In this document: positions 45,512-63,795 of the stretch, piece by piece
How positions within the stretch are numbered: position 1 is the first letter of the stretch
Layout: every line of letters starts with the position of its first letter
From: Mesorhizobium sp. AR10
Lineage (GTDB): Bacteria; Pseudomonadota; Alphaproteobacteria; Rhizobiales; Rhizobiaceae
Assembly (NCBI RefSeq): GCF_024746795.1
Contig: NZ_CP080524.1
Span: forward strand, 5,806,001-5,870,000
Length of the DNA stretch: 64,000 nt
Reading direction: 5' to 3'
Notes under the pieces: generated by a model
What the model saw: only the letters and a program-made list of their open reading frames with translations
Database searches by the model: none
Told to the model about the DNA's origin: nothing
Translations under genes and position numbers: made by a program

Positions 45512-45624
45512 CCGTAGGCGCTGGCCATGATCCGATGACCTCGTTGGTCGCCATCGGGCGCGTTTGTCGCCGCTCTTACAAGCTTGCGGTCGATTTTCAT
45601 GGCTGCAGTCTCATCGAGGCTCAG

Positions 45625-45725: not shown

Positions 45726-45773
45726 GGGCCACTCTCGGCGTAAGGCCGGCATTCTCAAAACAGCTGGGGTTGG

Positions 45774-46037: not shown

Positions 46038-46294
46038 AAGGCCCTCCCTCCTGCGCAACACCATATTCTCTCAATTTCAATCATAGTTGGTCAGATTTGA
46101 AAACCCCCTGGCGTTTTCTGTCCCCAGTTCCTTTCTGATAATTGGCCTTGGCCGAGCTTGGCTCGTCAACGTGCCAACCGGCGCGTCGGACCATCCGAGA
46201 ACGGGCTCATCTCACTGTGATAACAGGCCTAAGTGACCGGGTGGACGCCTGGTACAGCCGCCCACCCGGATCCTATGATTACGCTTGGCCTAGG

Positions 46295-46951
46295 TCAGCC
46301 ACCGGCACCACCGCTGCCACCGCCGCCACCGCTGCCACCGGCACCACCGCTGCCACCGCCGCCACCGCTGCCACCGGCACCACCGCTGCCGCCACCGGCA
46401 CCACCGGCACCACCGCTGCCGCCACCGGCACCACCGGCACCACCGTCGCCACCGCCGCCGCCGCCGTCGCCGCCGTCGCCACCACCGCCGCCGTCGCCAC
46501 CACCGCCGCCGTCGCCACCGCCACCGCCGTCGCCACCACCGCCGCCGTCGCCACCGCCACCGCCGTCGCCACCACCGCCGTCGCCACCACCGCCGCCGTC
46601 GCCACCGCCGCCACCGTCGCCACCGCCACCGTCGCCACCACCGCCGCCGGAGTTGCCACTGTTGCCGTTGCCACCACCTTCCCCATCACTGGCCAACGCA
46701 GCTGCGACGAGAGCGGTGGTGAGGGGTGGGCATTGGGCGAGTTGATCGGCAGACAAGATGCTCTTGCGATTGATCGCTATGCAGCAAAGCTCGTAGTTAC
46801 TTTCGGTAAGCGGCTGACATTGCGCGGCCGCTAGCCGCGGTCGCACACTATTCTGTGCTGTTGTGGGAGTTGCCAAAACCACCGCCACAAGGGCGGATGA
46901 AACAAGCAAGGTTGAGCGAACCCTGCTCGCGCAGGTTGGGTACAGGTGCAT
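46295..46951 (-). CDS. Exported protein with a Cys-containing head and Gly/Asp repeat tail
   Basis: A 218-residue protein. AGGAGGAAGAA precedes the ATG, and the signal peptide STLLVSSALVAVVLATPTTA is clear. About 55 mature residues follow with four cysteines (AQCQPL, ELCCIAI, AQCPPL), then some 110 residues built almost only from GGGGDG/GGGG units that shift to GGAGGxGG near the end. The tail resembles the elastic or mineral-binding Gly/Asp tails of surface proteins, but it is not the RTX nonapeptide because the hydrophobic position is missing. Composition is like the large protein at 53081. A surface or matrix role is inferred. Confidence 0.8.
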   Translation of the reverse strand: MHLYPTCASRVRSTLLVSSALVAVVLATPTTAQNSVRPRLAAAQCQPLTESNYELCCIAINRKSILSADQLAQCPPLTTALVAAALASDGEGGGNGNSGNSGGGGGDGGGGDGGGGGDGGGGGDGGGGDGGGGGDGGGGGDGGGGGDGGGGGDGGGGGDGGDGGGGGGDGGAGGAGGGSGGAGGAGGGSGGAGGSGGGGGSGGAGGSGGGGGSGGAGG

Positions 46952-47138
46952 TTCTTCCTCCTAAAGGGAAAAAAGGCGCTCCCGTCCCCAAACTGGGCGC
47001 TATATCAAAGTTTCCGACCATCGGAAACATATTGTTAACTATACACTGTTTTGAAAGCAGTGCAAATGCCATCGGTAAGGGTTGATTTAGCTTGTCCTGA
47101 AATTATGAATGTCGCCCATCGACAGAAGGGGACGACAA

Positions 47139-47705
47139 GTGATTCGTTTGGCGGCAATTGTGGCCGCAGCCATGGTGACATCTGGCTGCAGCGATACCAT
47201 GCATACCAGTGGCACTACAGCGACGATGGTCACCAAAGGGTACGCATTCGCCCCGCCGGCCTTTCGTCCCTTCTGCGCCAGACAACCAAAACTCTGCAGC
47301 ACCGGCGGTCAGGTCAAGCAGGTTAAGCTCACGCCGGCACGCCAGGCTGAGCTTGCGGCTGTGAACAGCTCCGTCAACCACCGGATCAAGGAGCGTAGCG
47401 ACCTCGACTCGGTCGGCAGTGCCGACGATTGGCGTGTCCCGACCAAAGACGGTGACTGCGAGGACTTCGCCATCCTGAAAAAGAGCGAACTTCTGAAGCG
47501 CGGATGGCCGGCTTCCGCCTTGCTGCTGACAGTCGTGACACTCGGCGGCGCAGGCCACACGGTGCTTACCGTGCGCACGGACAAGGGCGACCTGATCATG
47601 GACAACCGCAGCAGCGCCGTCAGGAATTGGTCGCGTACTTCGTATCGGTATTTTGCCAGGCAATCCCAGTCCGAAAAAGGCAAGTGGACACGCATCGCGT
47701 CCTAG
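47139..47705 (+). CDS. Transglutaminase-like cysteine protease (BTLCP, LapG family)
   Basis: A 188-residue exported protein. The GTG at 47139 follows AAGGGGACG and starts a signal with a possible lipobox (MVTSGC); the ATG at 47109 has no ribosome site. Catalytic Cys is in DGDCEDFA, His in GAGHTVLTV and Asp in DLIMDN, matching the bacterial transglutaminase-like cysteine proteinase group. Its best-known member, LapG, clips a type I-secreted adhesin at the cell surface. The type I secretion genes 10 kb downstream make a comparable role here attractive, though these proteases are common in alphaproteobacteria. Confidence 0.88.
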   Translation: MIRLAAIVAAAMVTSGCSDTMHTSGTTATMVTKGYAFAPPAFRPFCARQPKLCSTGGQVKQVKLTPARQAELAAVNSSVNHRIKERSDLDSVGSADDWRVPTKDGDCEDFAILKKSELLKRGWPASALLLTVVTLGGAGHTVLTVRTDKGDLIMDNRSSAVRNWSRTSYRYFARQSQSEKGKWTRIAS

Positions 47706-47934
47706 CCGGTACAGGCCTCCGCAGATTTTCCGCGGTGTTTCGTGGCCGACGGGATTATTCACGACCTGCCCTGATCCTCAGGCACGGCCTCGCGCCACCA
47801 ACGGTTCGCACATAGCTCGAATGAACTACTCCTTGCCGCCTTCCAACGGCGTTCCTTCCATGCCACATTTGCCGGAATTTCCTTGCCTGGCCAAGGGTTA
47901 GAAGGAAAACAGCCAGTGCCGTAACCGTCACCGG

Positions 47935-47957
47935 TTTGCCCACGCCCTTCGGGCAAA
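47935..47957 (+). promoter_or_regulatory. Hairpin overlapping the ribosome site of the first CelD-like gene
   Basis: TTTGCCC (47935-47941) pairs with GGGCAAA (47951-47957). The right arm merges into AAAGG, the only candidate ribosome site before the ATG at 47968, so folding could lower initiation. Seven perfect pairs; effect untested. Confidence 0.35.
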
Positions 47958-47967
47958 GGTCAACATC

Positions 47968-49623
47968 ATGCGTGTGGATGTTATCGATAGTTTCGATACT
48001 CTCCTCCAACTGAGAGGCAATTGGGACGCTGTCTACGAAGCTGACCCGGAAGCTCAGTTCTTCATGTCCTGGACATGGATCGCGGGCTGGTTCAAGCGAC
48101 TTCGCTATCAATGGATCATTCTGGCTGCAAAAGAAGAGCATGGCTCATCGGACTATGTCGGTTTCTTCCCTCTGCAGCTACGAACGGAAAGAGCCAGGGA
48201 CGGCGGATTCCAGAACGAACTCAGGACCGGGGGGAGTTATTTCGCCGGATATACAGGGTTCATTTGCAGCCCCGAAATTCAGGATGATGTCGTCCGCGCT
48301 TTTGCCGAACACGCAAAGCAGATAAACTGGGCCAAGCTCCATCTTGAGAATATTTTCGCGTCGCCGCAGCGGCTTGGCGCATTCCTGGGCCAATTTCCAC
48401 CTTCCGAGTTCCTGACCAGCAAGGTCAAACGGCCGGACGATGGCGACAACATCGATCACGATATCTATGTCTACGTGAATTTGCCCGGCAGTTGGGACGA
48501 GTTCCTTGGCGAAAGAATGGGCTCGCACACACGCTATAACGCCAGGCATACGCTAAGGTCGATCGAAGACGGGGGTGAGTACCGGATCACCAACGTTACC
48601 GCGGCGACGCTCGAGCACGACCTGAACGCACTCCTTGGGTTCTGGAAGAACCAGTGGGCGGCCAAGCTGGCGGCGCGATACCATCCGGGCCTGCCGCAGG
48701 CGATGATGAACAATTTTCGCAACATGCTCAGCTCCTGTTTCGAGCACGATGCCCTCTCTCTTCCCGTCTTGTGGCGGGGAGAAACCCCAATCGGGGTGCA
48801 GGCCAGCCTCATCGACCGCAAGAACAGGTCTCTGATCAGCTTGCTCAATGGACGCGACCTCACCATCAAAAGGCCGGCTCCAGGTTTTGCGCTTCATCTC
48901 TACAGCATACGATGGGCTATACAGAACGGCTTCGCCATCTACGATCTTCAGACAGGGAATTTTTCCTACAAATATGATTTCGGCGGCATCGAACGCCGGG
49001 TCGAGTGCCTCCTCGTGAGTACAAAGACCCGTCGCAATCTTCGCAACAGGCTGGACAGCCGCAGCCTGCCTGTTGTGCTCACAAGGGCAAACGGGTTGCA
49101 CGAAGCGGGTGAACTCGACGCGGCCGCGCAGGCCTGTCGCCAGATCCTGGATGCCGATCCTGCTCATGTGGGTGCGCTTCGGCTGCTCCAGCAACTCGCC
49201 GCAACGCGACAAGCTCATTTACCGCGCGATCTGAAGAGGGCGGCGCATTTTCATCAAACCGGGCATTTGGCTGAAGCGGAGAAGATGTACCGCGCAATCT
49301 TGAATGTTGAGCCCAAACACTTTGATGTCACTTACCTGCTTGGCGTGATTTTCCTTCAGCAGCGAAGGTACGAAGAGGCGGAACGGCAGAGCAGTCTCGC
49401 GATAAGTCTCAGACCCGATGTCGCTGCGTCGCACTACAATCGTGGATTGGCGCTGGTGAAACTCGACCGCGTCGAGGAAGCTCTGGCGAGCCTGAACGAT
49501 TGCATCGGACTCAAGCCGGATCATAGCCAGGCCATTGCCCTGCGCGACAATGTGCTGAAGACCTTTGGGCGCACGGCAAGTCCGCCCAGCAGATCCCCCA
49601 GTTCGGGCTCACCGGTCAGATAG
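47968..49623 (+). CDS. CelD/BcsL-like acyltransferase fused to TPR repeats (paralogue 1)
   Basis: A 551-residue cytoplasmic protein. Residues 1 to about 365 form a FemAB/GNAT-like double acyltransferase domain of the CelD type: NWDAVYEADPEAQFFMSWTW, NWAKLHLEN, and YDLQTGNFSYKYDFGG near its end. The remainder is TPR-like (LDAAAQACRQILDADPAHVG, LAEAEKMYRAILNVEPKHFD, and two more units). It is a clear paralogue of the protein at 61896-63563, with the same domain order and length. CelD-like enzymes are linked to cellulose or polysaccharide acylation; acylation of a secreted protein is equally possible here. Converges on the TolC-like gene with three bases between. Confidence 0.88.
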   Translation: MRVDVIDSFDTLLQLRGNWDAVYEADPEAQFFMSWTWIAGWFKRLRYQWIILAAKEEHGSSDYVGFFPLQLRTERARDGGFQNELRTGGSYFAGYTGFICSPEIQDDVVRAFAEHAKQINWAKLHLENIFASPQRLGAFLGQFPPSEFLTSKVKRPDDGDNIDHDIYVYVNLPGSWDEFLGERMGSHTRYNARHTLRSIEDGGEYRITNVTAATLEHDLNALLGFWKNQWAAKLAARYHPGLPQAMMNNFRNMLSSCFEHDALSLPVLWRGETPIGVQASLIDRKNRSLISLLNGRDLTIKRPAPGFALHLYSIRWAIQNGFAIYDLQTGNFSYKYDFGGIERRVECLLVSTKTRRNLRNRLDSRSLPVVLTRANGLHEAGELDAAAQACRQILDADPAHVGALRLLQQLAATRQAHLPRDLKRAAHFHQTGHLAEAEKMYRAILNVEPKHFDVTYLLGVIFLQQRRYEEAERQSSLAISLRPDVAASHYNRGLALVKLDRVEEALASLNDCIGLKPDHSQAIALRDNVLKTFGRTASPPSRSPSSGSPVR

Positions 49624-49626
49624 ATT

Positions 49627-51051
49627 TCAGCGGCCATCCGGCGTGCGCAGGCCGATCCACTTGTCCTTGACCGCGTTGTAATGCTCTTCAGGTCTGTATT
49701 TCGTCACCTGCAGAGCGAGGCGTTCGACCGACAGACGGCCGATCGCCGAAAGGATGGCATAGCTCGCCACCACGACATCATGTTCGGAGTTGGCAAGCTC
49801 GATCTTCGCAGTGATGACGGCGTTCTGGGCGTTCAACACGTCGAGCGTGGTGCGCTGGCCGACATTGCGCTCTTCGATGACGCCATTCAAAGCCAATTGC
49901 GCGGCGGCGATCACCTCCCTGTTGGCAACGACACCCTGTTGCGCGGCGGTGTATTGCGTCCATGCCGAGGTGACGGCGTTGCGCACCTGGTCGCGGCTGA
50001 CATCGACCTCGATCCGGGCCTGGCTGAGCGATTCCTTCGACTGCCGAACCAATGCCGAGGTACGGCCACCCGAATAGATCGGGATTGTCAGCGTCGCGCC
50101 GATATTGGCCGAGGTCGAATCGCCGTTGGTGCCGATATCCGGACTACGGTGCAGATAATCCTGGGAAATACCGGCCGAAGCGGAAAGCTGCGGCAGCAGG
50201 GCGCCTTCGTTCGATTTCACCGAAAACCCCGCCGCATCGACCAGATGCTGGGTGGCCAGGATGGCCGGATGCTCGGCGGATGCGATGGTGATCGCCGCAC
50301 CCAGGTTCGATGGCAAAAGCTTCGCCAACGGTGAAGCGCCCTTGAGCTTGCCCGGTTCATCGCCGACGATCTGATGATAGGACGCCGCACTTGCCAGTGC
50401 CTGCGCACGCGCGGCACTCAACTGCGCCACGGCGGACGAACGCGAGGCGTCGGCCTGGGCGACGTCGGTGCGCGTGCCTTCGCCAACCTCAAAGCGCGAG
50501 CGTGCCGCGCGCGCTTGCTCGGTGAGGAACTGCAGGTTCTGCTCGGTCAGCACCGCCACCTGCCGGTCGCGTATCACGTCCATATACGCTTGCGCCGCAG
50601 TAAACAGAATGTTCTCTTCGGTGTTGCGCAGGCTTTCGACCGAGGCGCTGACCCGCGATTCGGCGGCAGCGACGTTGTTCCTGGTCTGGAACCCGTCGAA
50701 CAGGCTCTGGTTGATCACGATACCGACACTGGCGCTCGAAAGTTTGTTGCTGGCGCCGCTGACGCGCGTGTTCTGGTAGTCGACGTCAGCCTGTCCATTG
50801 ATGGTCGGGCGCCAGCCGGACTTGGCGAGGGGCACGCCCTCGTCGGTGACACGGACACCGGCACGGGCGGAATTCAGCGAGGAATTGTTCTGGTAGGCCT
50901 TGGAAAGCGCGCCGAAAATGGTTTCCGCGGAGGCGACTATCGGCGAAAGCGCGGTCGCGGACAGGACCAGACACGCCAGGAACCCGTATCGCGGAAACAA
51001 CAAAGACAAATTCAACTCCCCCCTTCTGCGGTAAAGCTCAACTCGCTCCAC
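49627..51051 (-). CDS. TolC-family outer-membrane channel of type I secretion
   Basis: A 474-residue protein. The start is uncertain (GTG at 51051, or TTG codons near 51015 behind AAGGGGGGAG); the signal peptide LACLVLSATALSPIVASA lies just after. Two repeated halves have TolC features: ALSKAYQNNSSLNSARAGVR, VGEGTRTDVAQADASR and VGQRTTLDVLNAQNAVI. It forms the trans-envelope duct for the ATPase (57196) and adaptor (60535). Unlike them it lies on the minus strand in an operon with a LuxR-type regulator, so duct and pump can be set separately. Confidence 0.93.
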   Translation of the reverse strand: MERVELYRRRGELNLSLLFPRYGFLACLVLSATALSPIVASAETIFGALSKAYQNNSSLNSARAGVRVTDEGVPLAKSGWRPTINGQADVDYQNTRVSGASNKLSSASVGIVINQSLFDGFQTRNNVAAAESRVSASVESLRNTEENILFTAAQAYMDVIRDRQVAVLTEQNLQFLTEQARAARSRFEVGEGTRTDVAQADASRSSAVAQLSAARAQALASAASYHQIVGDEPGKLKGASPLAKLLPSNLGAAITIASAEHPAILATQHLVDAAGFSVKSNEGALLPQLSASAGISQDYLHRSPDIGTNGDSTSANIGATLTIPIYSGGRTSALVRQSKESLSQARIEVDVSRDQVRNAVTSAWTQYTAAQQGVVANREVIAAAQLALNGVIEERNVGQRTTLDVLNAQNAVITAKIELANSEHDVVVASYAILSAIGRLSVERLALQVTKYRPEEHYNAVKDKWIGLRTPDGR

Positions 51052-51084
51052 CGTTCCCTAAGGATAGTAAATTTGTTAACCAAT

Positions 51085-51567
51085 TCACCTCGGAAACGAA
51101 TTCTCGTCAACAATTGACCATATATCTCTATTTATTTCTCTTATATGTTCAATAGATTCGTATATTCTGCTCATTTCCTTATCATCAAGCTTTTCGATCT
51201 TTCCGTATTTTACCTCATCCTTTCCGTCCGCGATACGCATCAATTGCGTGCTCGCATGAGTCCCCGTTTCGTCGAACGAATAGATACAGTGGCTGTATTT
51301 GTTTCGCAACTTCCCCTGGCGGGTAAGTTTGCCGGTGACGGTCAGAACTGCCTGACGGCACGCGGTCGGCGTTTTCGGCATTTTCGCCAGGCGCTCGACC
51401 AGTTCGATGCGCGCGCGCGTCGTATTCAGCGTCAAGAAAATGATGATTGCCGTTTCCTTGTCGACCTTCGCCAAACCGGCAATCAGATAAATCAGCAGGC
51501 TTTCGGTGTTGGTCCACGTGTAGTTCAACTGGCCAACGAGGAGCAGAATCTCCTGAAAGCGGGGCAT
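51085..51567 (-). CDS. Hypothetical protein of unusual composition
   Basis: A 160-residue soluble, helical protein with no motif I can name. It starts MPRFQEILLLVGQLNYTWTN three bases after the LuxR-type gene, and is followed 33 bases later by the TolC-like gene. Its DNA is visibly richer in A/T than neighbours, with many AAA, ATT and ATA codons, which suggests recent transfer. A helical run ending NKYSHCIYSFDETG has a HEPN-like RNxxxH look only in part (RNKYSH), and this is worth testing. Function unknown. Confidence 0.75.
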   Translation of the reverse strand: MPRFQEILLLVGQLNYTWTNTESLLIYLIAGLAKVDKETAIIIFLTLNTTRARIELVERLAKMPKTPTACRQAVLTVTGKLTRQGKLRNKYSHCIYSFDETGTHASTQLMRIADGKDEVKYGKIEKLDDKEMSRIYESIEHIREINRDIWSIVDENSFPR

Positions 51568-51570
51568 GAT

Positions 51571-52374
51571 CTAAGCGGAAGTTTGGGCAAAGCGCGACGG
51601 TCGCGCGTTGTCCGCATCGGCATGAAATGTACCCCTGCGATCGTGGAACACTGCCGCTGCCTCGGTCCTGTTGTGCGCGCCAAGTTTGGTGATGATGTTG
51701 TGCAGATGGATCTTGACCGTGTGTTCGGACAATTGAAGCGCGGCTGCGATGATCTTGTTCTGCAAACCTCGCGCCACCATCTCGAGAATCTGAAATTCTC
51801 GCTCGGTTAACTCGCCCATCTGATCGAACCCGGTGTCAGCAGAATTCGCGTGATCAGCCCGCTTGGAGTGGTCCGCGGTTTTGGCCGGAGCGCTCTGCGA
51901 GCTCTGTGCATATGACTGGAACATGGCGAATGGAAAATACTCCCCGCCACGAAGCACCAGCCTGATGACCGAAAGCCAGACATCCAGCTTCAAATCCATC
52001 GGCAGGACACTGCGCACAATCTTCAGGTCGAAGACATCCTGGACGGATACAGGTGTCCGATTATCATGCTGCACCAGAACGACCGGTGCCGCTGGATGAA
52101 GCCTTATCAGGTCGCCCGCACGCCTGTCGATTTCGGACAGGAATTCGACATCGACCAGTGTAAGGCAAACCGGATGCTCGAACGTGGTGCAAGCGGCCTC
52201 CAGAGTGGGGACCTGCTCTACCGATATGAAGGGAAACTCCCTCTCGATTGCATAAACCAGGCAATCGGGAAAACTGTCGGCCGGCGACGCTATCAGCAGA
52301 ACTCTCTGTGACCAGCTCTTTCCTAATCCGTCGTCACTAACGCTACGCGCGTTGGAATCCGCGACTCTTGACAT
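51571..52374 (-). CDS. LuxR-type regulator with receiver-like N-terminal domain
   Basis: A 267-residue protein. The C-terminal helix-turn-helix is typical: LTEREFQILEMVARGLQNKI, then ALQLSEHTVKIHLHNIITKL. The N-terminal half (RVLLIASPADSFPDCLVYAI ... LTLVDVEFLSEID) looks like a degenerate response-regulator receiver: the VDVEF aspartate is in the usual place, but the acidic pair and lysine are not clear. It leads the operon with the hypothetical and TolC-like genes and is divergent from the large Gly/Asp gene, so it is the natural candidate to control the whole island. Confidence 0.88.
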   Translation of the reverse strand: MSRVADSNARSVSDDGLGKSWSQRVLLIASPADSFPDCLVYAIEREFPFISVEQVPTLEAACTTFEHPVCLTLVDVEFLSEIDRRAGDLIRLHPAAPVVLVQHDNRTPVSVQDVFDLKIVRSVLPMDLKLDVWLSVIRLVLRGGEYFPFAMFQSYAQSSQSAPAKTADHSKRADHANSADTGFDQMGELTEREFQILEMVARGLQNKIIAAALQLSEHTVKIHLHNIITKLGAHNRTEAAAVFHDRRGTFHADADNARPSRFAQTSA

Positions 52375-53080
52375 GGCTACCCCACCCTAACCCTAAGACC
52401 AGCATTTCGGTTGACGGTTTCTGTTTCTGATTTTGGATCGCGAGAGTCCCAACCCCGCAAAACGGCTAGTCTTAACGAGTTATACACCAATTTAGGACCG
52501 ACTGATATAGTTCGGAGGAGCTATTGCCAATTTGTGGTTTACGGCCGTGCCGGCGGCTCGCGAGCGACCTCCGTCGGCATCCTCTCAACCGACTTGAACA
52601 GGCGGCCAGCCGGCTGGCCCGGCCGATTTCTCAAACAGCCTAATGACCACGATCTCAGAGTAGTCGCGGGGCGGATCGCAGAGTTGTCGCGGGGGGCGCT
52701 GCGATCTCATAGTGACAGCCCTTGTTCTCGGTGTTTCCCTCGAACGGGCTAGCCCGAACTGTCACCTTACAATTATTAGCCTGTGGCGCAAACTTCCCGT
52801 GTTCAGTGCAAGGGAGCGGGGAACTCCAGGTTATTGCCGTAACTGAGCGACCGGGTCCTTGAGGGTCCGGCGCCATGATCGTGCTTTACCTGATCGAGCC
52901 GCCTCTCCGAAGTCTAAGGGAGGTACTTCAAGCAACTTATGATGAAAGTCGGATTTCGGACCTCAGTCCCCTCGGTCCGATAGTCCATTCACCGCATTAA
53001 ACGCAACGTTCGCGCACAGCCCAAGGCCGCTAAGAGAAGAATGCGGTTCGGCAGTCGCGGCATCAACTGAGGAAACGATC
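52375..53080. promoter_or_regulatory. 706-base divergent control region of the secretion island
   Basis: This is the longest gene-free stretch. It separates the LuxR-type operon from the secreted-protein operon. A hairpin CGGACC/GGTCCG lies at 52957-52979. No frame in it has a convincing ribosome site; one 113-codon frame at 52411 has no coding character. A long leader RNA or several regulator sites could fit here. GAGGAA lies upstream of the ATG at 53081. Confidence 0.4.
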
Positions 53081-54991: not shown

Positions 54992-55003
54992 TTGGTTGCA
55001 CGA

Positions 55004-55060
55004 CTGATTTCGCAGGAAATCAGGCAGCTACGGACTGCGCGGAGTTTTTCCGCGCAGTCC
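55004..55060 (+). terminator. Tandem hairpins between the two secreted-protein genes
   Basis: CTGATTTC-gcag-GAAATCAG (55004-55023) is followed by GGACTGCGCGG, a 7-base T-rich loop and CCGCGCAGTCC (55032-55060), an 11-bp perfect stem. There is no U-run after it. Partial termination would make the upstream cargo gene far more abundant than the secretion machinery, a common pattern. Confidence 0.65.
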
Positions 55061-55121
55061 TTCCAATCCGAGAACATGCCGCAGGATTGAGCGTGAATGA
55101 TCTCAAGATACGGAGGCTTCC

Positions 55122-57176
55122 GTGTATTCCGTTTATTCTATGCAATTGGACAAGATATCCGAGGCTATCTCTCATTTCATAGGGATGTTCGAACTCTCGG
55201 TCGAAGAAGCGCGGCAGCAAAAGGCCTATGACGAGTTTAGAGCGGCCGAGGCCGTCAAGGAAGACATTCCCGATCTTCCCAACACCAATGTGAACGTCAA
55301 GGCACCCTACACGCTGGACGATTTCGATCCGCACGTTCCCTATATGGGGCTCAAGCCGGAACTGGTACCGTTCACCGTCAGCACGAACTTCTGGTACACG
55401 CCCCCGGAAATTCCCGAAGGCGGGCCTGTGCGCCTTGACCATGATCGGTTTCATACTCCGCACCTGCAGGCGGCCGGCAGTGGCATGACGCTGCCTCACA
55501 TCGAGCCTCCGGGCGCCGTTGCCGTCTACATCAACCAGGAGATCAGCCTGTCCGACAATGACTATGTCGGCGCCGGCGGGCATGGCCTGAAATTCACCCC
55601 GACGGTCGATGATGGCAGCCAACTGACATCGCTGTTGAATGCCACGGCGGAGTTGTCGCCTCTCGATGACCTGGCAATTCCGGGCTCCGCCGCGGATATC
55701 GCAGCTGTCGTGACCACCGCAGCCGATCGGATCGAGAGCTATTCTGGCAGCTCCGACGGAGAGGCTACTGTTTTCGTGGCGCGCTCCGACGCGAATTCGG
55801 ATCCCATCGACGGGACTTTCGTCAACGGACAGCTTGTCGACGAGGCTGACGCGCCGAAGATGGAGGACCATATCAACATCCTGAAGGAACAGGACGACGA
55901 CGAAGCCAGTGAAGGCCCCGACACGGAAGAATACAGCGTTTCGCCCGACTCCTCCGATTTCATGTCAGGCTGGGGCAACGGCTTGTTGGCTCCTTCGGTC
56001 GAGCTGCATGCCGGCGGCAACACGCTGATCAATTCCGCGGTTCTGACCAACAACTGGACAGGTGCACCAGTCATCGCCGTCGTCGGAGACAGCCATGAAG
56101 TCAACGCCATCGTCCAGATCAACGCACGGTGCGACACTGACTCGGTCAGCTCCACGCTCAATGGATGGACGCTGGGCGCCAATGGTCCCGACGAGAGCTT
56201 CAACATCGCGACGTTCAAGCACATCGACCCAACGGCCAACGACGAGGCTCCAGCCCCGGCGGACGGGTTCCCGGCCGCCTGGGTGGTGACCCAGATCACC
56301 GGCGACCTGGTCATCATGGACTGGATCCAGCAATACACGTTCATGATGGACAACGACACGAGCATCCTGTCGTCGTCCGGCGTCAGGACGATGGTGACGA
56401 CTGGCGACAACACGCAGATAAACGACGTTTCGCTCAATCAGCTGAGCTATTATTACGACCTGATCATCGTTGGAGGGAACATCTATGACGCCAACATAAT
56501 CCATCAGCTGAACATTCTCGTAGACAACGACCTCATCGGTGCGGTCGACGGGTTCGAGACGAGCGGCGAAGGCAGCTATTCAACCGCAGGCAACTTGCTC
56601 TGGAACGACGCGACGATCATCAATGTCGGCGGGCAAAATCATTTCGAGGCGCTGCCGGATTCCTATCTGAATGCGGCGACGGATCTTGCGGCCGGCAAGC
56701 AAGCCAGCCCCGGCGACATCCTGAACGACGAGGCCTTTGCCGGCATCGGAGCTCTGCGCGTCCTCTATATCTCCGGTGACATGCTCAATCTGCAGTACGT
56801 CTCGCAAACGAACGTGCTGGGCGACAGCGACCAGGTCGCCTTGGCGATGAACCAGTTCATTGCACATCCGGAAGCGGAATGGACCGTCATCACCGGTGGC
56901 AACCAGGTGGCCAATTTCGCCGGCATTATCGACGTCGACGGAACCGACAAGACCTATGTGGGCGGCGAACATTATTCAGATGAAATCCTGATCCAGGCGG
57001 ACATCATTTCGTGTGATCCGGAGTTCGGCGGACAGAATCCAGACACACTGGTGAACGAAGCGGTGGCCTTCCTCACCGATGACGCATCGGACGACGACGA
57101 CGTGCAGCCGGATCACCATGTGTCGCTGATTCCGGACAATTCACAGGTCGACGTCATGCAAGGCATGACGGGCTGA
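55122..57176 (+). CDS. Acidic repeat protein of type I secretion locus (684 residues)
   Basis: The GTG at 55122 follows CGGAGG by five bases; an ATG at 55140 is an alternative. There is no signal peptide. After an N-terminal helical part and a Pro-rich segment, residues of about 300-640 show at least five degenerate units of a G(G/D)-N/S-x-I-x-Q-x-N-x(3)-D-x-D kind: GDSHEVNAIVQINARCDTDS, GDLVIMDWIQQYTFMMDNDT, GGNIYDANIIHQLNILVDND, GDMLNLQYVSQTNVLGDSDQ. This spacing of roughly 60-80 residues suggests a beta-solenoid with acidic, perhaps calcium-binding, turns. I recall similar proteins labelled only type I secretion protein in rhizobia. Cargo or surface partner; function unknown. Confidence 0.8.
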   Translation: MYSVYSMQLDKISEAISHFIGMFELSVEEARQQKAYDEFRAAEAVKEDIPDLPNTNVNVKAPYTLDDFDPHVPYMGLKPELVPFTVSTNFWYTPPEIPEGGPVRLDHDRFHTPHLQAAGSGMTLPHIEPPGAVAVYINQEISLSDNDYVGAGGHGLKFTPTVDDGSQLTSLLNATAELSPLDDLAIPGSAADIAAVVTTAADRIESYSGSSDGEATVFVARSDANSDPIDGTFVNGQLVDEADAPKMEDHINILKEQDDDEASEGPDTEEYSVSPDSSDFMSGWGNGLLAPSVELHAGGNTLINSAVLTNNWTGAPVIAVVGDSHEVNAIVQINARCDTDSVSSTLNGWTLGANGPDESFNIATFKHIDPTANDEAPAPADGFPAAWVVTQITGDLVIMDWIQQYTFMMDNDTSILSSSGVRTMVTTGDNTQINDVSLNQLSYYYDLIIVGGNIYDANIIHQLNILVDNDLIGAVDGFETSGEGSYSTAGNLLWNDATIINVGGQNHFEALPDSYLNAATDLAAGKQASPGDILNDEAFAGIGALRVLYISGDMLNLQYVSQTNVLGDSDQVALAMNQFIAHPEAEWTVITGGNQVANFAGIIDVDGTDKTYVGGEHYSDEILIQADIISCDPEFGGQNPDTLVNEAVAFLTDDASDDDDVQPDHHVSLIPDNSQVDVMQGMTG

Positions 57177-57195
57177 TTGGGATCCGGGGGGATTT

Positions 57196-60100
57196 ATGAT
57201 GAACGACGATCGTGACCAGTCCTGGGGCTCGTTTGCCGACGACCTGGAAGCAGCCATGTTCGAGGACGAACCGGCTGCGCAAAAGTCGGCTGAACCGACG
57301 ACCAGCAAATCCCTCTCCGGTGCTTTGCAGCGGCATGAACGGGTAATCGACCGGACCATCGAGGCGATCGACCATGTGGTCGACGAACTTCGCAATGTCG
57401 CGGGCGGCACCGAGCCACATGCGGCGAAGGCCGAACATTACCCGGCATTTCCCTGGCGGCTCGACGAGACGGCCAGATCTGTCGACAAGGACGCACCCAA
57501 GCCGCAGCAAGCCAGGTCGTCTGTGGCCCCCTCGGAAGGCAAGGCGCAGACGGCGCCCGAAAATCCTGCGACTGGGCTCCCTGCGACGGCGAGGCCGGCG
57601 CAGGCGAGGGAACACGGCGAGGTCAAACAGACCGGCATGCAGACGGCGCCATCCGCCGTCCTGCCAGCGGCCAAGGAAAACCGCGCAACACCGCCACAGC
57701 CGGCCAGATCGGCGCCAGCGCCTTCTTCCGCGACCGGGACGGTCGCAGCCTTGGGCGACACGTCCGGGCCATCTGCCAAGAGCACACGCTCCAGCTCAGA
57801 GTCCGGAGAGTCCGCACCGACCGCGATGGCAGCCGCAAAGGCCGTGACGGTCGCCGAGAAGGATCATGTGACGACCGAACGGTCGGCGGCGAAGCCAGAA
57901 TCCGTTCAGACTGCCGCTGCCGGAACAACAAGAACCAATGCGCCGGCAAGCCCAATACCGGTGCCGCCCAGGCCGCAAAGTGCGCCTGCCCATCCGGCAG
58001 CGTCGGAATCCAGGACAGCGTCTCCAACTCAGAAGCACGACGCTCCAATCGCCGCCGCTGCGACGAAGCCTGCCCAGCCGGCAGCGTCGGAGCCCAGGAC
58101 AGGGTCAACGGCTCAGAAGCACGATGCTCCGATCGCCGCCGCTGCGACGAAGCCTGCCCAGCCGGCAGCGTCGGAATCCAGGACAGGGTCTCCAGCTCAG
58201 AAGCACGACGCTCCAATCGCCGCCGCTGCGACGAAGCCTGCCCAGCCGGCAGCGTCGGAATCCAGGACGGCGTCTCCAGCTCAGAAGCACGACGCTCCAA
58301 TCGCCGCCGCTGCGACGAAGCCTGCCCAGCCGGCAGCGTCGGAATCCAGGACAGCGTCTCCAGCTCAAAAGCACGATGCTCCAAGCGTAGCCACTGCGAC
58401 GAAGCCTACCCAGCCGGCAGCGTCGGAATCCGGGACAGCGTCTCCAGCTCAAAAGCACGATGCTCCAAGCGTAGCCGCTGCGACGAAGCCCGCCCAGCCG
58501 GCAGCGTCGGAATCCAGGACAGCGTCTCCAGCTCAGAAGCACGATGCTCCAAGCGTAGCCGCTGCGGCGGGACCAGCCGCCGCACCCACGGCCAAGGCAA
58601 TTCCCGACGCGCCCGCGAAACCAGCGGAATCCGACATGAAGGATGTGCCGAAGTCTCCAAGCACCATCGTCATAGACGGCGACACCGGCCCGATAAAAGC
58701 AAGGGAACGGCCGCTTGAAGGCGGTGGTCCTCCGGGAGGCACCGACGACAGTGGCCGTCGAGGCGGCGGTGGTGGTGGCGGTGGCGCCTTTCACAAGCGC
58801 CTCGGCCCGGTCGATTTCGGCGCTTCTCTCAAGGCCGGGCTGCGGGCGGTCAAGAAAAACCTGATGATCGTCATGCTGTTCACGGTCGCGTGCAACATGC
58901 TGGTCCTGGCGATTCCGATCTATCTGTTTCAGATCTCGGATCGCGTCCTTACCAGCCGTTCCGGCGACACCTTGATCATGCTGACCGTTGTGATTGTCGG
59001 CGCAGTGATCTTGCAGGCGATGTTTGATGCGCTTCGCCGCTTCATCCTGATGCGCACGGCGGTCGAGGTCGCGGCCCAGTTGGGCGCGCCGATCCTGAGT
59101 GCGGCGGCCAGAGCCTCGCTGAACAGCAACGGAAAAGAGTATCAGGTTCTAGGCGACCTGCAGCAACTGAGGAACTTCCTGACATCCGGCACGCTGCTGT
59201 CGTTCCTCGATGCGCCGATGGCTCCCTTCATGATGCTGGCGGTGTTTCTCATCCACCCGCACCAGGGCTTCATCGTCATGGCCTCCGCGCTGATTCTCCT
59301 GATCATCACGGTCCTTAACCAGCGCGCGACGGCGGCGGCCTTCGGCGAGGCGAATGCGCATCAGACCAAGGCCAACATCCATCTCGATTCAATGTCGCGC
59401 AATTCCCAGATCATCAACGCGCTCGCCATGATTCCCGAGGCGGTGCGGATTTGGGGCAAGGACACGGCAAACTCTCTTCGCTCACAGGTGATCGCACAGG
59501 ATCGCAACATCATCTTTGCTTCGATATCGAAGGCTGTCCGGCTTCTGACCCAGGTAACGATGCTTGGCTGGGGGGCTCATCTGGCGATCGATGGTCATCT
59601 TACTGGCGGCATGGTTATTGCGGCATCGATCATCGCCGGCCGTGCGCTGGGGCCGATCGAGGGCGCGATCGAAGGCTGGAACCAGGTTGTGCATTCCCGT
59701 GCCGCCTATGGCCGGATAGCAGCCCTTCTGCAATCCTCGCCGCTCAATTTCGAACGCTTGAACCTGCCTCGGCCGGAGGGCCGTCTTGATGTCGAACGGT
59801 TGCTTTTCGTGCCCCAGGGAACCAAGCGCGTCGTGCTGAACGGCATATCGTTCGCACTCTCACCTGGCGACTCCCTGGCGATCATCGGCAACTCGGGCGC
59901 CGGCAAGACGACCTTGGGCAAGATGCTGGTCGGCTCGATCCTGCCTACATCAGGCAACGTCCGGCTGGACTTGATGGATCTGCGCAACTGGGATCCGCGC
60001 CAGTTTGGCGAGAACATCGGCTATCTGCCGCAGGATGTTCAGCTCTTCCCCGCATCGATCAAGGCCAACATCGGCCGGATGCGCGATGACGCGACCGATG

Positions 60101-60522
60101 CCGAAATCTATCAGGCCGCCATGCTGGCGGACGTCCATGAAATGATCTCCACCCTGCCGCACGGCTACGAGACATTCGTGGCCGCCGATGGAGCACCGCT
60201 TTCCGGCGGACAGAAGCAGCGTGTCGCCCTTGCGCGCGCCTTTTTCGGCAATCCGCGATTGGTCGTGCTCGACGAGCCGAATTCGAACCTGGACGCCGCA
60301 GGCGACGCAGCGCTGGAGCGCGCGCTGCAGCACGCCAAGGAACATAAGATCACGGTCATCACCATCACCCAGAGACCATCCCTGCTCAAGAGCGTCGACA
60401 AGATACTCCTGCTCGTCAACGGCACCGTCGCTCTCTTCGGCGTACGCCAGGAAGTCCTGCAGGCCCTGGCTTCCCGCGGGCTGGGCATCGAGGGCGGTTC
60501 ATTCGGTCATCAGATCCAGTAG
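57196..60522 (+). CDS. Type I secretion ABC permease/ATPase with long N-terminal repeat extension
   Basis: A 1108-residue protein. The C-terminal 560 residues are a PrtD-like exporter: membrane helices start near residue 555 (NLMIVMLFTVACNMLVLAIP), Walker A is GNSGAGKTT (Gly898), signature LSGGQKQRVALARAFF, Walker B LVVLDEPNSNLD. The switch position reads TITQRPSLL, with Gln1059 where most ABC ATPases have His. Residues 1-540 are a low-complexity Ala/Pro/Ser/Lys extension with seven 28-residue repeats (see 57993-58580) and a Gly-rich end before the membrane. PrtD proteins are usually under 600 residues, so the extension is an addition. It exports the neighbouring cargo with HlyD and TolC partners. 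Confidence 0.94.
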   Translation: MMNDDRDQSWGSFADDLEAAMFEDEPAAQKSAEPTTSKSLSGALQRHERVIDRTIEAIDHVVDELRNVAGGTEPHAAKAEHYPAFPWRLDETARSVDKDAPKPQQARSSVAPSEGKAQTAPENPATGLPATARPAQAREHGEVKQTGMQTAPSAVLPAAKENRATPPQPARSAPAPSSATGTVAALGDTSGPSAKSTRSSSESGESAPTAMAAAKAVTVAEKDHVTTERSAAKPESVQTAAAGTTRTNAPASPIPVPPRPQSAPAHPAASESRTASPTQKHDAPIAAAATKPAQPAASEPRTGSTAQKHDAPIAAAATKPAQPAASESRTGSPAQKHDAPIAAAATKPAQPAASESRTASPAQKHDAPIAAAATKPAQPAASESRTASPAQKHDAPSVATATKPTQPAASESGTASPAQKHDAPSVAAATKPAQPAASESRTASPAQKHDAPSVAAAAGPAAAPTAKAIPDAPAKPAESDMKDVPKSPSTIVIDGDTGPIKARERPLEGGGPPGGTDDSGRRGGGGGGGGAFHKRLGPVDFGASLKAGLRAVKKNLMIVMLFTVACNMLVLAIPIYLFQISDRVLTSRSGDTLIMLTVVIVGAVILQAMFDALRRFILMRTAVEVAAQLGAPILSAAARASLNSNGKEYQVLGDLQQLRNFLTSGTLLSFLDAPMAPFMMLAVFLIHPHQGFIVMASALILLIITVLNQRATAAAFGEANAHQTKANIHLDSMSRNSQIINALAMIPEAVRIWGKDTANSLRSQVIAQDRNIIFASISKAVRLLTQVTMLGWGAHLAIDGHLTGGMVIAASIIAGRALGPIEGAIEGWNQVVHSRAAYGRIAALLQSSPLNFERLNLPRPEGRLDVERLLFVPQGTKRVVLNGISFALSPGDSLAIIGNSGAGKTTLGKMLVGSILPTSGNVRLDLMDLRNWDPRQFGENIGYLPQDVQLFPASIKANIGRMRDDATDAEIYQAAMLADVHEMISTLPHGYETFVAADGAPLSGGQKQRVALARAFFGNPRLVVLDEPNSNLDAAGDAALERALQHAKEHKITVITITQRPSLLKSVDKILLLVNGTVALFGVRQEVLQALASRGLGIEGGSFGHQIQ
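57993..58580 (+). repeat. Seven tandem 84-bp units in the secretion ATPase gene
   Basis: The block CCGGCAGCGTCGGA recurs with exact 84-base spacing (CGTCGG at 58001, 58085, 58169, 58253, 58337, 58421 and 58505). Each unit encodes 28 residues of the type QPAASESRTASPAQKHDAP followed by an Ala-rich end. Near-identical units at DNA level imply recent expansion; copy number may vary between strains. Confidence 0.92.
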
Positions 60523-60534
60523 CAGGCGACAAAA

Positions 60535-61875
60535 ATGACAACCGACGTCGTAAAAGTTCAGGATATGCAGTGGTACTCCGAGGTGCCACGTTCGATCTGG
60601 AAACAGACGATGGTGGGCCTGCTGCTCATCACGGTGACTTTCGGCGGCTTCGGCACCTGGGCCTTCACGGCGCCGCTCGCATCCGCCATCGTCGCTCAAG
60701 GGAGTTTCGTCGCCACCGGGCAAAACAAGATCATCCAGCATCTCGAAGGCGGTATCATCAAGGAACTCCTGGTCAGCGAAGGGGACCATGTCAGCCTGGA
60801 TCAGCCGCTGATCAAGCTCGATGAAACTGCCGCCCAGACGAACGAACGGCAATTGTTCCTGAGAAAGGCCAGGCTCGAGGCAATCGCGGCCCGCTTGAAT
60901 GCCGAGGTGCAAGACAGCCCCAAGATCCAGTTCCCCAAGATTGTGACCGACAATCGGTACGACCCGGAAATTGCGCCGATCATGGAAAGCCAGCAACTCA
61001 ACTTCGCCGCCGCGATTAACAAACGCAGCAGTGAAATAGGGCTGTTCGATCAGAACATAAAAGCCATGCAGTTCCGCAATGAAGGCATCGAGGAGCAGAT
61101 CTCGTCGGTTCGGCGGCAATTGCAGTTCCTGAAGGAAGAGTATCAGGGCAAGAAAACGCTTCTCGAACAGGGCTTGATCCGCGGGACCGAGGTGAAGGCG
61201 ATCCAGCGGGCGATGGCCGACGCAGACGGCCAGATCGGGAAGATGTTGGCGGAAGTTTCCGAGAATCGCGAACAGATCGTCAGGTTCGAACAGCAGATCA
61301 CGCAGACGAAAGACGCCTATCGCCAGGCCGCGCTCCAGGAATTGCAGAGCCTGGAAGCCGAACTGGACACGGTGCGTGAGCAGTCGCGGGAGGCGGAGAA
61401 TGTACTTCGCCGCGTAATCATCAATGCTCCCGTGCCCGGCACCATCATACGCATGTATTACCACACTGCCGGTGGTGTCATTGAAAGCGGCAAGGCCATC
61501 CTCGAGATCTTGCCCTCAGAGGCGCCTTTGGTCATCGAGGCTCAGGTCCCTCGCACAGATATCGACAATGTGAAGGTCGGGCAGAGGGCCTCGATCAGGC
61601 TGACCGCGCTCAACCGGCGAACCACGCCGGTTCTGGAAGGCGAGGTCTACTATGTCTCGGCCGATGCCTTGCCTGATGTGCAAGGCCCCGTCCCGCGGGA
61701 AGTCTACATGGCGCGCGTGCGTTTGCCGGCGAGCGAACTGGCGAAGGTGCACGGCTTTACACCGACGCCTGGAATGCCTGCCGAAGTACTCGTGCAGACC
61801 CAGTCACGGACGTTCTTCAGCTACCTGACAAAGCCGATCGCCGACAGCATGGCCAAGGCATTCATGGAACAGTGA
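60535..61875 (+). CDS. HlyD-family membrane-fusion protein of type I secretion
   Basis: A 446-residue adaptor. One membrane helix at about residues 25-46 (MVGLLLITVTFGGFGTWAFT) is followed by the lipoyl-like half IIQHLEGGIIKELLVSEGDH, a long coiled-coil hairpin (about 95-290, with RRQLQFLKEEYQGKKTLLEQ), the second lipoyl half NAPVPGTIIRMYYHTAGGVI and a beta-barrel domain ending GMPAEVLVQTQSRTFFSYL. It begins 12 bases after the ATPase gene and links it to the TolC-like duct. Confidence 0.95.
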   Translation: MTTDVVKVQDMQWYSEVPRSIWKQTMVGLLLITVTFGGFGTWAFTAPLASAIVAQGSFVATGQNKIIQHLEGGIIKELLVSEGDHVSLDQPLIKLDETAAQTNERQLFLRKARLEAIAARLNAEVQDSPKIQFPKIVTDNRYDPEIAPIMESQQLNFAAAINKRSSEIGLFDQNIKAMQFRNEGIEEQISSVRRQLQFLKEEYQGKKTLLEQGLIRGTEVKAIQRAMADADGQIGKMLAEVSENREQIVRFEQQITQTKDAYRQAALQELQSLEAELDTVREQSREAENVLRRVIINAPVPGTIIRMYYHTAGGVIESGKAILEILPSEAPLVIEAQVPRTDIDNVKVGQRASIRLTALNRRTTPVLEGEVYYVSADALPDVQGPVPREVYMARVRLPASELAKVHGFTPTPGMPAEVLVQTQSRTFFSYLTKPIADSMAKAFMEQ

Positions 61876-61895
61876 GTGAGTAATCGGGGGGGACT

Positions 61896-63563
61896 ATGCA
61901 GATCGACGTCATCACCACACGGGACGCCTTGAACGAGCTCAGGCAGAACTGGGATGATCTTTACGAAAAGGATCCCGAAGCCCAGTTCTTCATGTCATGG
62001 ACGTTTCTCTCATCCTATGTTCGCCGGTATGAAGGCGCATGGTCCGTCCTGGCGGCGCGGCCCGGACCGCCAGGCTCACCCTATGTGGCCCTGCTGCCGT
62101 TGCGGCTGCGCACCCGGCTGAACAAGAAAACCGGGTACTCCCACAACGAAATCAACATGGCCGGAAGTTTTGCGGCCGATTACACGGGCATCGTTTGTGC
62201 GCCGGGCTCTGCCGACCGCGCGATCCCGGCGCTTGCAAAACACCTGACCAGGATGAACTGGGCCAAACTGCATCTCGAAAATCTGCGCATGTCCGAGCCA
62301 AGGCGTCGCTTGCTGCTCAAGAACCTCGACGACAAACGGCTCGAAGCTCAACAGATGCGACGCGTCAACAAAGCCGACAATATCGACAATTGCATTTGTC
62401 CATCCCTCGACCTGCCGGGGGATTGGGAAACCTATCTCGAGCAGAAAACCAGTTCAAACACGCGCCAGAAGATCAGGCGGTTCCTTCGAAAGCTGGACGG
62501 ATCCAACGAGTTTCGCATAACCCATGCCGACGCATCGACGATCGACCGCGACATCGGCATCATCCTGGAAATGTGGCGCATCAAATGGGCGGCGCGAAAG
62601 GGCAACCTTCTGCCCAGCCTGATCAGGTCCAACCGAAGACTGTTCAAGGACGCCTTCGAGAGCGGGACGCTGTTCCTTCCGATTCTGTGGCAAGGAGACA
62701 AGCCGCTCGGCGGCCTGGCATTCCTGGTCGACTCGGTCAAAAAGGCGATGTTCTTCCACCTAGCCGGACGCGACGAGACCGCCAATGACATCCCATCGGG
62801 ACTTGTGCTGCATGCCTATTGCATCCGTCGTGCGATCGAGCAGGGCTTCCGCAGCTACGACTTCCTGCGCGGCAATGAGCCCTACAAATACTCGTTCGGT
62901 GTCGAGGAAACCACGATCCATTGTGTTCTGGTCAAAACCAAGACTGGCCGCAATCTCGGTGACCGGCTTGACGCGAGATCCTTGGGAAGCGTGCTGGAGC
63001 AGGCGACCACCTTTCACGAGGCAGGCAAACTGGCCAATGCCGAGAATGCCTACCGCCAGATTCTCGAAGTCGATCCTCGCCACGCGCGTACCCTGTACGG
63101 ATTGGGCCAGTTGCTCGCCGCGAAAGGGGATCACTGGTCGGCCGCCGACACCTTCGCCTCGCTTGTGGCCATCGCACCCAAGTCGGTGAAGGCGTGGTCG
63201 CGGCTTGCCATCGAACATCAGGCGCTGAATCGCCACGCCGAGGCCGCGGACGCCTTCCGCAAGCTGCTTGAGCTCAATCCGGAACTTCCCTCAGCGCAAT
63301 ACGGTCTTGGCCGCAGCCTGGCGCAACTGCGAGAGGTGGAAGAAGCCGCGAAAATCCTGAGCGCGTTGCAAGCCCGGTCCGACGCATCCACGGATCCTGT
63401 GCTTCGCGCCAAGGCACGCATGCAACTAAACAAGCTGAAGCAAGACGTGAACCCTTGTTACATTCGCCTGGATTCATCGAGCCAAACTTCACCGACCTTT
63501 GCAGATGCCAACTATGGCGAGCTTTCGCGACCTTTGATAACCCGCCGATTTGCTCACCCTTGA
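61896..63563 (+). CDS. CelD/BcsL-like acyltransferase fused to TPR repeats (paralogue 2)
   Basis: A 555-residue protein, last gene of the secretion operon, 20 bases after hlyD-like gene. Domain order and key blocks match the protein at 47968-49623: NWDDLYEKDPEAQFFMSWTF, NWAKLHLEN, YDFLRGNEPYKYSFG and KTKTGRNLGDRLDARSL, then TPR units (LANAENAYRQILEVDPRHAR, HAEAADAFRKLLELNPELPS). Co-transcription with the pump suggests that it acts on the cargo or on a surface glycan needed for its display. The TPR part may dock the enzyme to the cargo or to the extended ATPase. Acyl donor and target are unknown. Confidence 0.88.
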   Translation: MQIDVITTRDALNELRQNWDDLYEKDPEAQFFMSWTFLSSYVRRYEGAWSVLAARPGPPGSPYVALLPLRLRTRLNKKTGYSHNEINMAGSFAADYTGIVCAPGSADRAIPALAKHLTRMNWAKLHLENLRMSEPRRRLLLKNLDDKRLEAQQMRRVNKADNIDNCICPSLDLPGDWETYLEQKTSSNTRQKIRRFLRKLDGSNEFRITHADASTIDRDIGIILEMWRIKWAARKGNLLPSLIRSNRRLFKDAFESGTLFLPILWQGDKPLGGLAFLVDSVKKAMFFHLAGRDETANDIPSGLVLHAYCIRRAIEQGFRSYDFLRGNEPYKYSFGVEETTIHCVLVKTKTGRNLGDRLDARSLGSVLEQATTFHEAGKLANAENAYRQILEVDPRHARTLYGLGQLLAAKGDHWSAADTFASLVAIAPKSVKAWSRLAIEHQALNRHAEAADAFRKLLELNPELPSAQYGLGRSLAQLREVEEAAKILSALQARSDASTDPVLRAKARMQLNKLKQDVNPCYIRLDSSSQTSPTFADANYGELSRPLITRRFAHP

Positions 63564-63564
63564 A

Positions 63565-63645
63565 TCACCTGACGATGCAGCCGCCATCCACGACGAAGTC
63601 GGAGCCAGTAATCACCGATGCACAATCGCTGGCTGCGACGGCGAT
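63565..63645 (-). pseudogene. Remnant: C-terminal tail of a short-chain dehydrogenase
   Basis: The minus strand reads AVAASDCASVITGSDFVVDG then GCIVR and a stop (TGA at 63567-63565). Ser-x-x-x-Thr-Gly-x-x-(F/L)-x-Val-Asp-Gly-Gly is the standard end of SDR enzymes. The frame is closed upstream by TAG at 63646, so only about 26 codons remain. Confidence 0.7.
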
Positions 63646-63795
63646 CTAGCACTCGATCAGTTGATGGCCTTCGCGGGCCGACTGGTGCCGGTCATACCAA
63701 CCGCGGATGATGCGATCGGCCACCATGGCAACCAGCGCGATCGCCAGGCCTGACGTGAGACCGAGCCCGGCGAGCCTGCGCCGCTGCAAGACCCC
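63646..63795 (-). pseudogene. Remnant: probable C-terminal end of a ProW-type ABC permease
   Basis: In another minus-strand frame the segment GLGLTSGLAIALVAMVADRI followed by IRGWYDRHQ looks like the last helix and tail of glycine-betaine/proline permeases (recalled pattern LAIALLAxxxDRxxQ). The frame has no convincing ribosome site or full-length upstream part. With the dehydrogenase tail it indicates a decayed leftward operon. Identification is from a short helix, so it is tentative. Confidence 0.4.

Follow-up and report, generated by a model that had tools for sequence, protein, structure and literature searches.

Acyltransferase, cargo, ABC pump and HlyD adaptor are encoded together in the HlyC/RTX operons (hlyCABD, rtxC-A-B-D), in which HlyC amidates the epsilon-amines of two lysines of HlyA, a type I cargo (PMC8953716). 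BapA of Paracoccus denitrificans is an acidic low-complexity protein exported with BapBCD as a type I secretion system (T1SS) and needed for biofilm (PMC5588039). The rhizobial PrsDE T1SS, described without a linked outer-membrane gene (PMC4085339), serves several proteins and exports biofilm matrix proteins, the Rap proteins having cadherin-like domains. The present analysis concerns an island at positions 46295-63563 of a 64,000-nucleotide stretch of Mesorhizobium sp. AR10 (contig NZ_CP080524.1, positions 5,806,001 to 5,870,000), in the following called the window, within a 6.88-Mb, two-contig genome. In this island a variable shell surrounds a core that is conserved; the core consists of the genes for a small protein (SMALL), a LuxR-type regulator, two large predicted cargo proteins (MATRIX and SOLENOID), a PrtD-type pump and HlyD. 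As judged from sequence comparison, the core is probably a dedicated type I module exporting MATRIX and SOLENOID, with an acyltransferase-TPR protein (GNAT-TPR) modifying lysines in [DE]-x-K-x-[DE] motifs of MATRIX before export.

The module resembles the HlyC/RTX operons in gene content, but its enzyme is a PF13480-TPR protein and an accessory, it has two cargoes, no RTX match was found, and many lysines in a low-complexity motif stand against two conserved lysines in HlyC/RTX. No HlyC family was present among the Pfam and NCBIfam matches of either GNAT-TPR protein at E 0.1. BapA differs from the predicted cargoes in being a single 2,211-aa Asp-Ala repeat protein, and no second cargo, SMALL or GNAT-TPR is reported in the available part of its description (PMC5588039). 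The module shares with PrsDE the proposed export of matrix proteins by a rhizobial T1SS; no mention of MATRIX- or SOLENOID-like cargo was seen for PrsDE. The original prediction, made from the window alone, had been unable to place this combination of genes, and likewise no description of the module was recognised in any title or abstract of the literature searched, subscription papers lying largely outside that search.

Every gene listed in the original prediction was found as an open reading frame. The SMALL gene, just downstream of the LuxR-type regulator gene, had been absent from that list. The features of the island are:

46295..46951, minus strand: Sec-type poly-Gly/Asp protein of 218 aa, signal-peptide-like N-terminus by eye; accessory
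47109..47705, plus strand: LapG-like BTLCP cysteine protease (PF06035, 175 bits); accessory
47968..49623, plus strand: GNAT1-TPR, acyltransferase paralogue (PF13480 and TPR); accessory
49627..51051, minus strand: TolC-family outer-membrane duct (TIGR01844, 354 bits, above cut-off); accessory at this site
51085..51567, minus strand: SMALL, 160 aa, predicted cytosolic and mostly helical; core component
51571..52374, minus strand: LuxR-type regulator (GerE helix-turn-helix, 73 bits), divergent from the cargo genes
52742..52759, no strand: palindrome GAACGGGCTAGCCCGAAC between regulator and cargo genes; candidate operator
53081..54991, plus strand: MATRIX, acidic predicted cargo of 636 aa; homologues in conserved order
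55122..57176, plus strand: SOLENOID, second predicted cargo of 684 aa; N-terminal helix plus about four beta repeats
57196..60522, plus strand: PrtD-type ABC pump with an N-terminal extension of ~548 residues (TIGR01842, 697 bits)
60535..61875, plus strand: HlyD periplasmic adaptor (TIGR01843, 380 bits)
61896..63563, plus strand: GNAT2-TPR acyltransferase, proposed modifier of MATRIX lysines (PF13480 and TPR); accessory

Conserved core and accessory genes

The main set comprised 85 loci, namely the best 80 of 167 SOLENOID-relative stretches from a genome scan and five of 32 matching plasmid records (Sinorhizobium meliloti, Sulfitobacter, Paracoccus, Cereibacter and a Rhizobium). Gene presence is given relative to those loci that had enough flank. 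The gene order MATRIX-SOLENOID-pump-HlyD was found from Mesorhizobium to Rhodobacterales, in bacteria of soil and of marine habitats. The pump adjoined SOLENOID in all 84 loci, and MATRIX lay upstream of SOLENOID in 78 of 79, the miss being L095 from S. meliloti. HlyD was present in 79/80 loci, the sole miss (L097) scoring below threshold but being annotated as HlyD, and SMALL in 74/74. With phmmer and a threshold of 90 bits, the LuxR-type regulator was detected in 55/74 loci; in three Rhodobacterales loci under this threshold the regulator was annotated as a response regulator or as LuxR-type. An extra set of 16 further loci was drawn from distant lineages. Thirteen carried SOLENOID, and all 13 showed the four genes in order with SMALL nearby. 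No module was found within the stretches fetched at L100, L108 and L115, which had been chosen for one strong and two weak SMALL matches.

The TolC, LapG-like protease and acyltransferase-TPR genes are accessories. A downstream GNAT-TPR gene was present in 22/76 loci, a LapG-like gene in 21/69, an upstream GNAT1-TPR at more than 500 bits in 7/85 and a TolC gene at the module in 1/68 (L081). By the refuting condition of the original prediction, the cargo stood, being kept in the 76 loci with enough downstream flank, but the acyltransferase proved accessory, since the downstream enzyme was found in only 22 of them. TolC, also named in that prediction, was rejected as a fixed component, with its single occurrence. 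Remnants of TolC may survive in L022, L026, L030 and L034, where TolC-like matches were weak at 22-55 bits. Three TIGR01844 genes over the cut-off are present in the window's genome. A phage origin was not supported, SOLENOID having no match in the phage collection, and neither was an anti-phage role, the single PADLOC match (for SOLENOID) being at chance level. Known RNA elements reaching the gathering score were not found in 44000-64000. In composition, the module is an ordinary transport machine combined with an unusual conserved cargo pair and an obligate partner without convincing structural match.

SMALL

By its distribution in genome sequences, SMALL is an obligate partner of the module. 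Among 397 Hyphomicrobiales genomes, SOLENOID was strongly matched in 32, SMALL in 34 and both in 32 (Fisher p 3.7e-45), a count that omits three weak SOLENOID and two weak SMALL matches. In 385 genomes from the class, both were found in the window's own genome and in G718, and weak SMALL matches alone in four; in 200 genomes from the phylum, all six matches fell within the same class. Compared with Sulfitobacter, SMALL was 56% identical, SOLENOID 31% and the pump core 71%, while MATRIX aligned over 60 residues only.

For the window SMALL, neither Pfam nor NCBIfam gave a match and the PDB gave none of use; its relatives gave scattered weak ones only. Its AlphaFold model (predicted local distance difference test, pLDDT, 91.5) is helical with three short strands and had no convincing structural neighbours, which does not by itself speak for a new fold. 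SMALL is most likely a cytosolic cargo chaperone or targeting factor, or a regulator. A less probable alternative to the chaperone role is that SMALL regulates the module as a HEPN-type RNase or by binding RNA; this idea stems from an invariant R-x2-Y-x-H stretch, which resembles a HEPN motif and is regarded as a lead only.

Acyltransferase-TPR genes and lysine motifs of MATRIX

The GNAT domains of the two paralogues in the window were 41% identical, and 30 residues were invariant across 16 aligned GNAT domains. In distant lineages, too, the module has GNAT-TPR genes next to it (L102, L109, L111 and L113). In the Sinorhizobium/Ensifer loci L035 and L095, the gene following the module encodes a TPR protein without GNAT domain, possibly a degenerate or repurposed relative.

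The lysine content of MATRIX was compared in 85 loci, a few of which share a genome: 72 from the main set, 13 others of which had short flanks or no usable MATRIX, and 13 from the extra set. Median lysine was 5.2% in the 25 loci with a neighbouring GNAT-TPR gene, versus 0.86% in the 60 loci without. Corrected for the pump tree, on which GNAT-TPR showed seven parsimony changes, the effect was +2.6 percentage points (phylogenetic generalised least squares, PGLS, p 2.4e-8; Brownian 2.3e-6). Lysine in SOLENOID, used as a control, showed no link to GNAT-TPR (p 0.28). When all 20 residues of MATRIX were compared, lysine gave the smallest p, followed by aspartate and by glycine, the latter with negative sign.

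Many of these lysines were flanked by an acidic residue at -2 and +2, as in NENKNEN, QDQKQDQ, ADAKSDA, GDAKADG and VENKVEN. The motif [DE]-x-K-x-[DE] was drawn from ten MATRIX proteins of GNAT-TPR-positive genomes, including those of the window and of G358. At least three motifs were present in MATRIX of 26/26 positive loci (range 3-21) and of 2/59 scored negative loci (PGLS p 1.5e-21), and lysines outside the motif showed no link to the enzyme (p 0.15). In positive loci, 360 motifs were observed where 22.6 were expected from shuffling. MATRIX of the window contains 29 lysines, 11 of them within the motif. Nine positive Mesorhizobium loci (L015, L017, L018, L021, L024, L038, L042, L154 and the window) had 11-16 motifs. 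The window's relatives L019, L020 and the held-out L147, for which no GNAT-TPR was found genome-wide, had 1, 4 and 1; this contrast fits a loss of the enzyme in that branch or its original absence. Possible acylation had been suggested in the original prediction, and the co-occurrence of GNAT-TPR with a lysine motif of the 636-aa protein gives it more support than the window alone could offer.

GNAT-TPR was searched genome-wide in 33 genomes. Among the 29 that were negative by neighbourhood, G358 had a match on another contig and a motif-rich MATRIX, G1070 (L047) had a partial match of 148 residues and 27 had none.

Held-out test of the motif rule

The rule that at least three motifs indicate the presence of GNAT-TPR was fixed before 40 further stretches were fetched. 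One stretch lacking SOLENOID, 11 identical to earlier loci and two without complete MATRIX were dropped, leaving 26. Scored by locus, the enzyme was found in 5/6 predicted positives and was absent from 19/20 predicted negatives, so that 24/26 were right (Fisher p 5.3e-4). The sixth predicted positive, L133, has six motifs and its enzyme lies elsewhere in genome G525. Counted by genome, to the extent searched, 6/6 positives and 18/20 negatives were right (24/26, p 1.2e-4). The 19 held-out negatives comprised ten without match genome-wide, L134 in the enzyme-bearing G525 and eight checked in the locus only.

Several observations weigh against a modification of MATRIX by GNAT-TPR or against joint assembly with SOLENOID. 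The motif was defined post hoc, and nine of its ten source proteins lie within the 85 loci then analysed; the held-out set alone escapes this. Seven of the 26 held-out loci in turn share 79-94% SOLENOID identity with discovery loci, so that this test is not fully independent. G358 was reassigned to the positive group after the genome-wide search, before the residue and motif tests. Most loci lack GNAT-TPR, and L020 and L047 have four and three motifs with no intact enzyme found. Of the two modules in genome G525, L133 has six motifs and L134 has none, and the single GNAT-TPR gene lies on a third contig; L134 therefore counts against the rule at genome level. In L116 (G168), the one predicted negative of the held-out set with the enzyme in its locus, GNAT-TPR is present with only one full motif, many lysines lying in TDTKT-like arrays. 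Negative loci also exceeded shuffling, weakly (31 motifs observed, 8.1 expected). Aspartate in MATRIX was higher with GNAT-TPR too (p 8e-5), and charge balance could therefore contribute. Finally, the profile match between MATRIX and SOLENOID was weak (best probability 7%), and the SOLENOID model was middling (pLDDT 72) and matched no solved fold.

Alternatively, the lysines are left unmodified and serve, within alternating X-acid arrays, in charge balance or crosslinks, e.g. Lys-Asp/Glu salt bridges, with GNAT-TPR acting elsewhere, e.g. on an exopolysaccharide that needs a cationic partner. This explanation is unlikely, but some findings agree with it, the aspartate rise among them. Lysines and acidic residues shared one parity: where two lysines of positive loci lay 3-12 residues apart, the spacing was even in 336 cases and odd in 85. 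PF13480 includes CelD/BcsL-type enzymes linked to polysaccharide. The module on the Sulfitobacter plasmid (L096, 134-154 kb) was located between sugar-nucleotide and glycosyltransferase genes, and no GNAT-TPR was found there. On the other side, neither the non-motif lysines of MATRIX nor the lysines of SOLENOID were linked to the enzyme, and many GNAT-TPR-negative modules keep acidic arrays with hardly any lysine. No polysaccharide gene was listed beside the module in the other four annotated neighbourhoods, the remaining loci not having been searched for such genes.

As an observation in its own right, the setting of L096 hints at a polysaccharide link in the Sulfitobacter lineage.

Predicted cargo proteins

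The window MATRIX and SOLENOID gave no Pfam match at E 0.1 and no Pfam or NCBIfam family above cut-off; both are real genes, with homologues arranged alike in more than 80 loci. No Sec signal was seen by eye in either protein, and the proposal of a T1SS travelling with two large proteins of this kind was supported. MATRIX has an Asn/Glu-rich N-terminus, a Gly/Asp-rich centre and the C-terminus AFNQxIVMGANLQxNxVDxTVVGG. The family is characterised by N/Q/D/E-rich arrays, usually with a Gly-rich centre, and by very little arginine; cysteine was absent from 74/78 aligned members. Conserved parts were a D-x-D-F-x-D segment, one Q-x5-D-x-D site and the C-terminal motif, and in distant lineages little was kept beyond the arrays and the C-terminus. 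In L109, L112 and L131, SOLENOID is preceded by a tandem pair of MATRIX-like genes, which suggests cargo duplication.

For SOLENOID, 280 homologues at E 0.001 or lower were obtained among 7997 candidates scored, and it was present in 29/146 Mesorhizobium species genomes. Its repeats matched each other by hhalign with up to 96.5%, and the N-terminal helix was conserved. Among its conserved columns, Q-x5-D-x-D recurs in five places and G-x-N-x3-N in three. Each is found once in MATRIX, the former above chance with a permutation P of 0.003 and the latter with P 0.07, not above chance. The shared Q-x5-D-x-D signature is a sequence-level hint that the two proteins may co-assemble. Homology of MATRIX and SOLENOID by profile was considered and was weak; the shared Q-x5-D-x-D spacing alone stood out.

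No convincing structural neighbours of the SOLENOID model were found, a negative that does not point to a new fold. The functional amyloids appeared in its Foldseek list without significance, FapC first (E 0.32) and CsgA lower (E 5.9); their export machinery differs from type I. That the two predicted cargoes are simply RTX-like exoproteins that bind calcium, within known T1SS biology, is improbable. Both are acidic and Gly/Asp-rich, the pump is PrtD-type and the five conserved Q-x5-D-x-D sites of SOLENOID could bind calcium, but neither cargo exceeded any Pfam or NCBIfam cut-off. No RTX family was present among the Pfam and NCBIfam matches of the window proteins or in a Pfam scan of 22 SOLENOID relatives, whose matches were weak and scattered only.

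Secretion machinery and regulator

Pump residues 549-1091 matched TIGR01842 (PrtD) with 697 bits at a cut-off of 510, and HlyD matched TIGR01843 with 380 bits at a cut-off of 209. The extension, formed by the first ~548 residues, varied widely in length between loci. In the window it holds an 84-bp (28-aa) tandem repeat at 57984-58566 (6.9 copies, 93% match), which is a likely site of strain-to-strain length variation. Before the membrane domain of the pump come a short acidic stretch closed by Pro-Ile/Leu, a linker rich in glycine, and FH[KR]R; FH[KR]R was present in 82/83 pump frames, and the stretch preceding it was looser. An exact GDTGP motif in the extension was tried and occurred in 18/83 frames only, a relaxed pattern in 42/83, the rest being mostly variants by eye and some having none. 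SMALL or cargo may dock at the extension.

The near-perfect palindrome at 52742-52759 is a candidate operator of the regulator. Its 10-bp core was found exactly in 7/76 other loci scanned, all seven from Mesorhizobium, and lay 253-289 bp before the MATRIX reading frame. One-mismatch forms occurred in some other loci, Sinorhizobium included. An operator conserved across lineages was rejected, the exact core being confined to Mesorhizobium. A looser inverted-repeat pattern gave eight matches in the window versus 3.1 by chance, none of them at the palindrome.

LapG-like protease and neighbouring genes

The protein encoded at 47109-47705 belongs to the PF06035 superfamily and scored 30 bits against the NCBIfam LapG cut-off of 320; three PF06035 loci are present in this genome. 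A Sec-type Gly-rich gene lay beside the LapG-like gene in 26/26 loci with LapG, and 26/27 loci with the Gly-rich gene had a LapG-like gene. Because of this pairing, the small Sec-type protein (46295-46951 in the window) is the likelier partner of the protease. No PF16448 (LapD) match was found, but the control likewise matched in no genome. The cleavage site of LapG-type proteases is a di-alanine. A LapA/LapG/LapD-like adhesin, from which the protease would cut the cargo off the surface, in line with the regulated release suggested in the original prediction, finds support in the PF06035 gene adjoining a T1SS in 21/69 loci, but is highly improbable and was rejected as the principal explanation, in view of the sub-cut-off LapG score, the minority of loci, the other partner gene and the lack of a conserved di-alanine site by eye in the SOLENOID alignment.

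Outside the island, a protein with a caspase domain (Peptidase_C14) and a peptidoglycan-binding domain is encoded at 5067-6914 of the window, adjoining an M23 peptidase gene.

Proposed mechanism and significance

Gene order, co-occurrence and the lysine correlation were read directly from sequence; from them we infer secretion and assembly of the cargoes, the modification of lysines and its chemistry, and the role of SMALL. The PrtD pump and HlyD, with a shared or local TolC, would export MATRIX and SOLENOID, which may assemble together as an extracellular fibrous layer. Where present, GNAT-TPR would modify the [DE]-x-K-x-[DE] lysines of MATRIX in the cytoplasm, many per molecule, its TPR part perhaps holding the MATRIX array; the modified protein would then leave by the type I route with SOLENOID and be assembled outside. 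Acylation of RTX toxins by HlyC may serve as a working analogue. PF13480 is related to the FemAB-type transferases, and an aminoacyl group is therefore as possible as a fatty acyl group. In its most specific form, the proposal is tentative, with a chance somewhat short of even: GNAT-TPR would be a multi-site lysine acyl- or aminoacyltransferase reading [DE]-x-K-x-[DE] in low-complexity arrays at about 3-21 sites before export and yielding a chemically modified extracellular fibre with SOLENOID, and SMALL would be an obligate, undescribed secretion factor.

If true, the module would represent a surface-protein system widespread among Alphaproteobacteria, three protein families of which have no above-cut-off match in Pfam, NCBIfam or PADLOC. 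GNAT-TPR would provide a second, independent route to lysine modification of type I cargo, differing from HlyC in domains, motif and number of sites. The prediction is specific as to enzyme, substrate and residues and points to related strains without the enzyme, and it would offer a defined gene set for work on rhizobial biofilm and root attachment.

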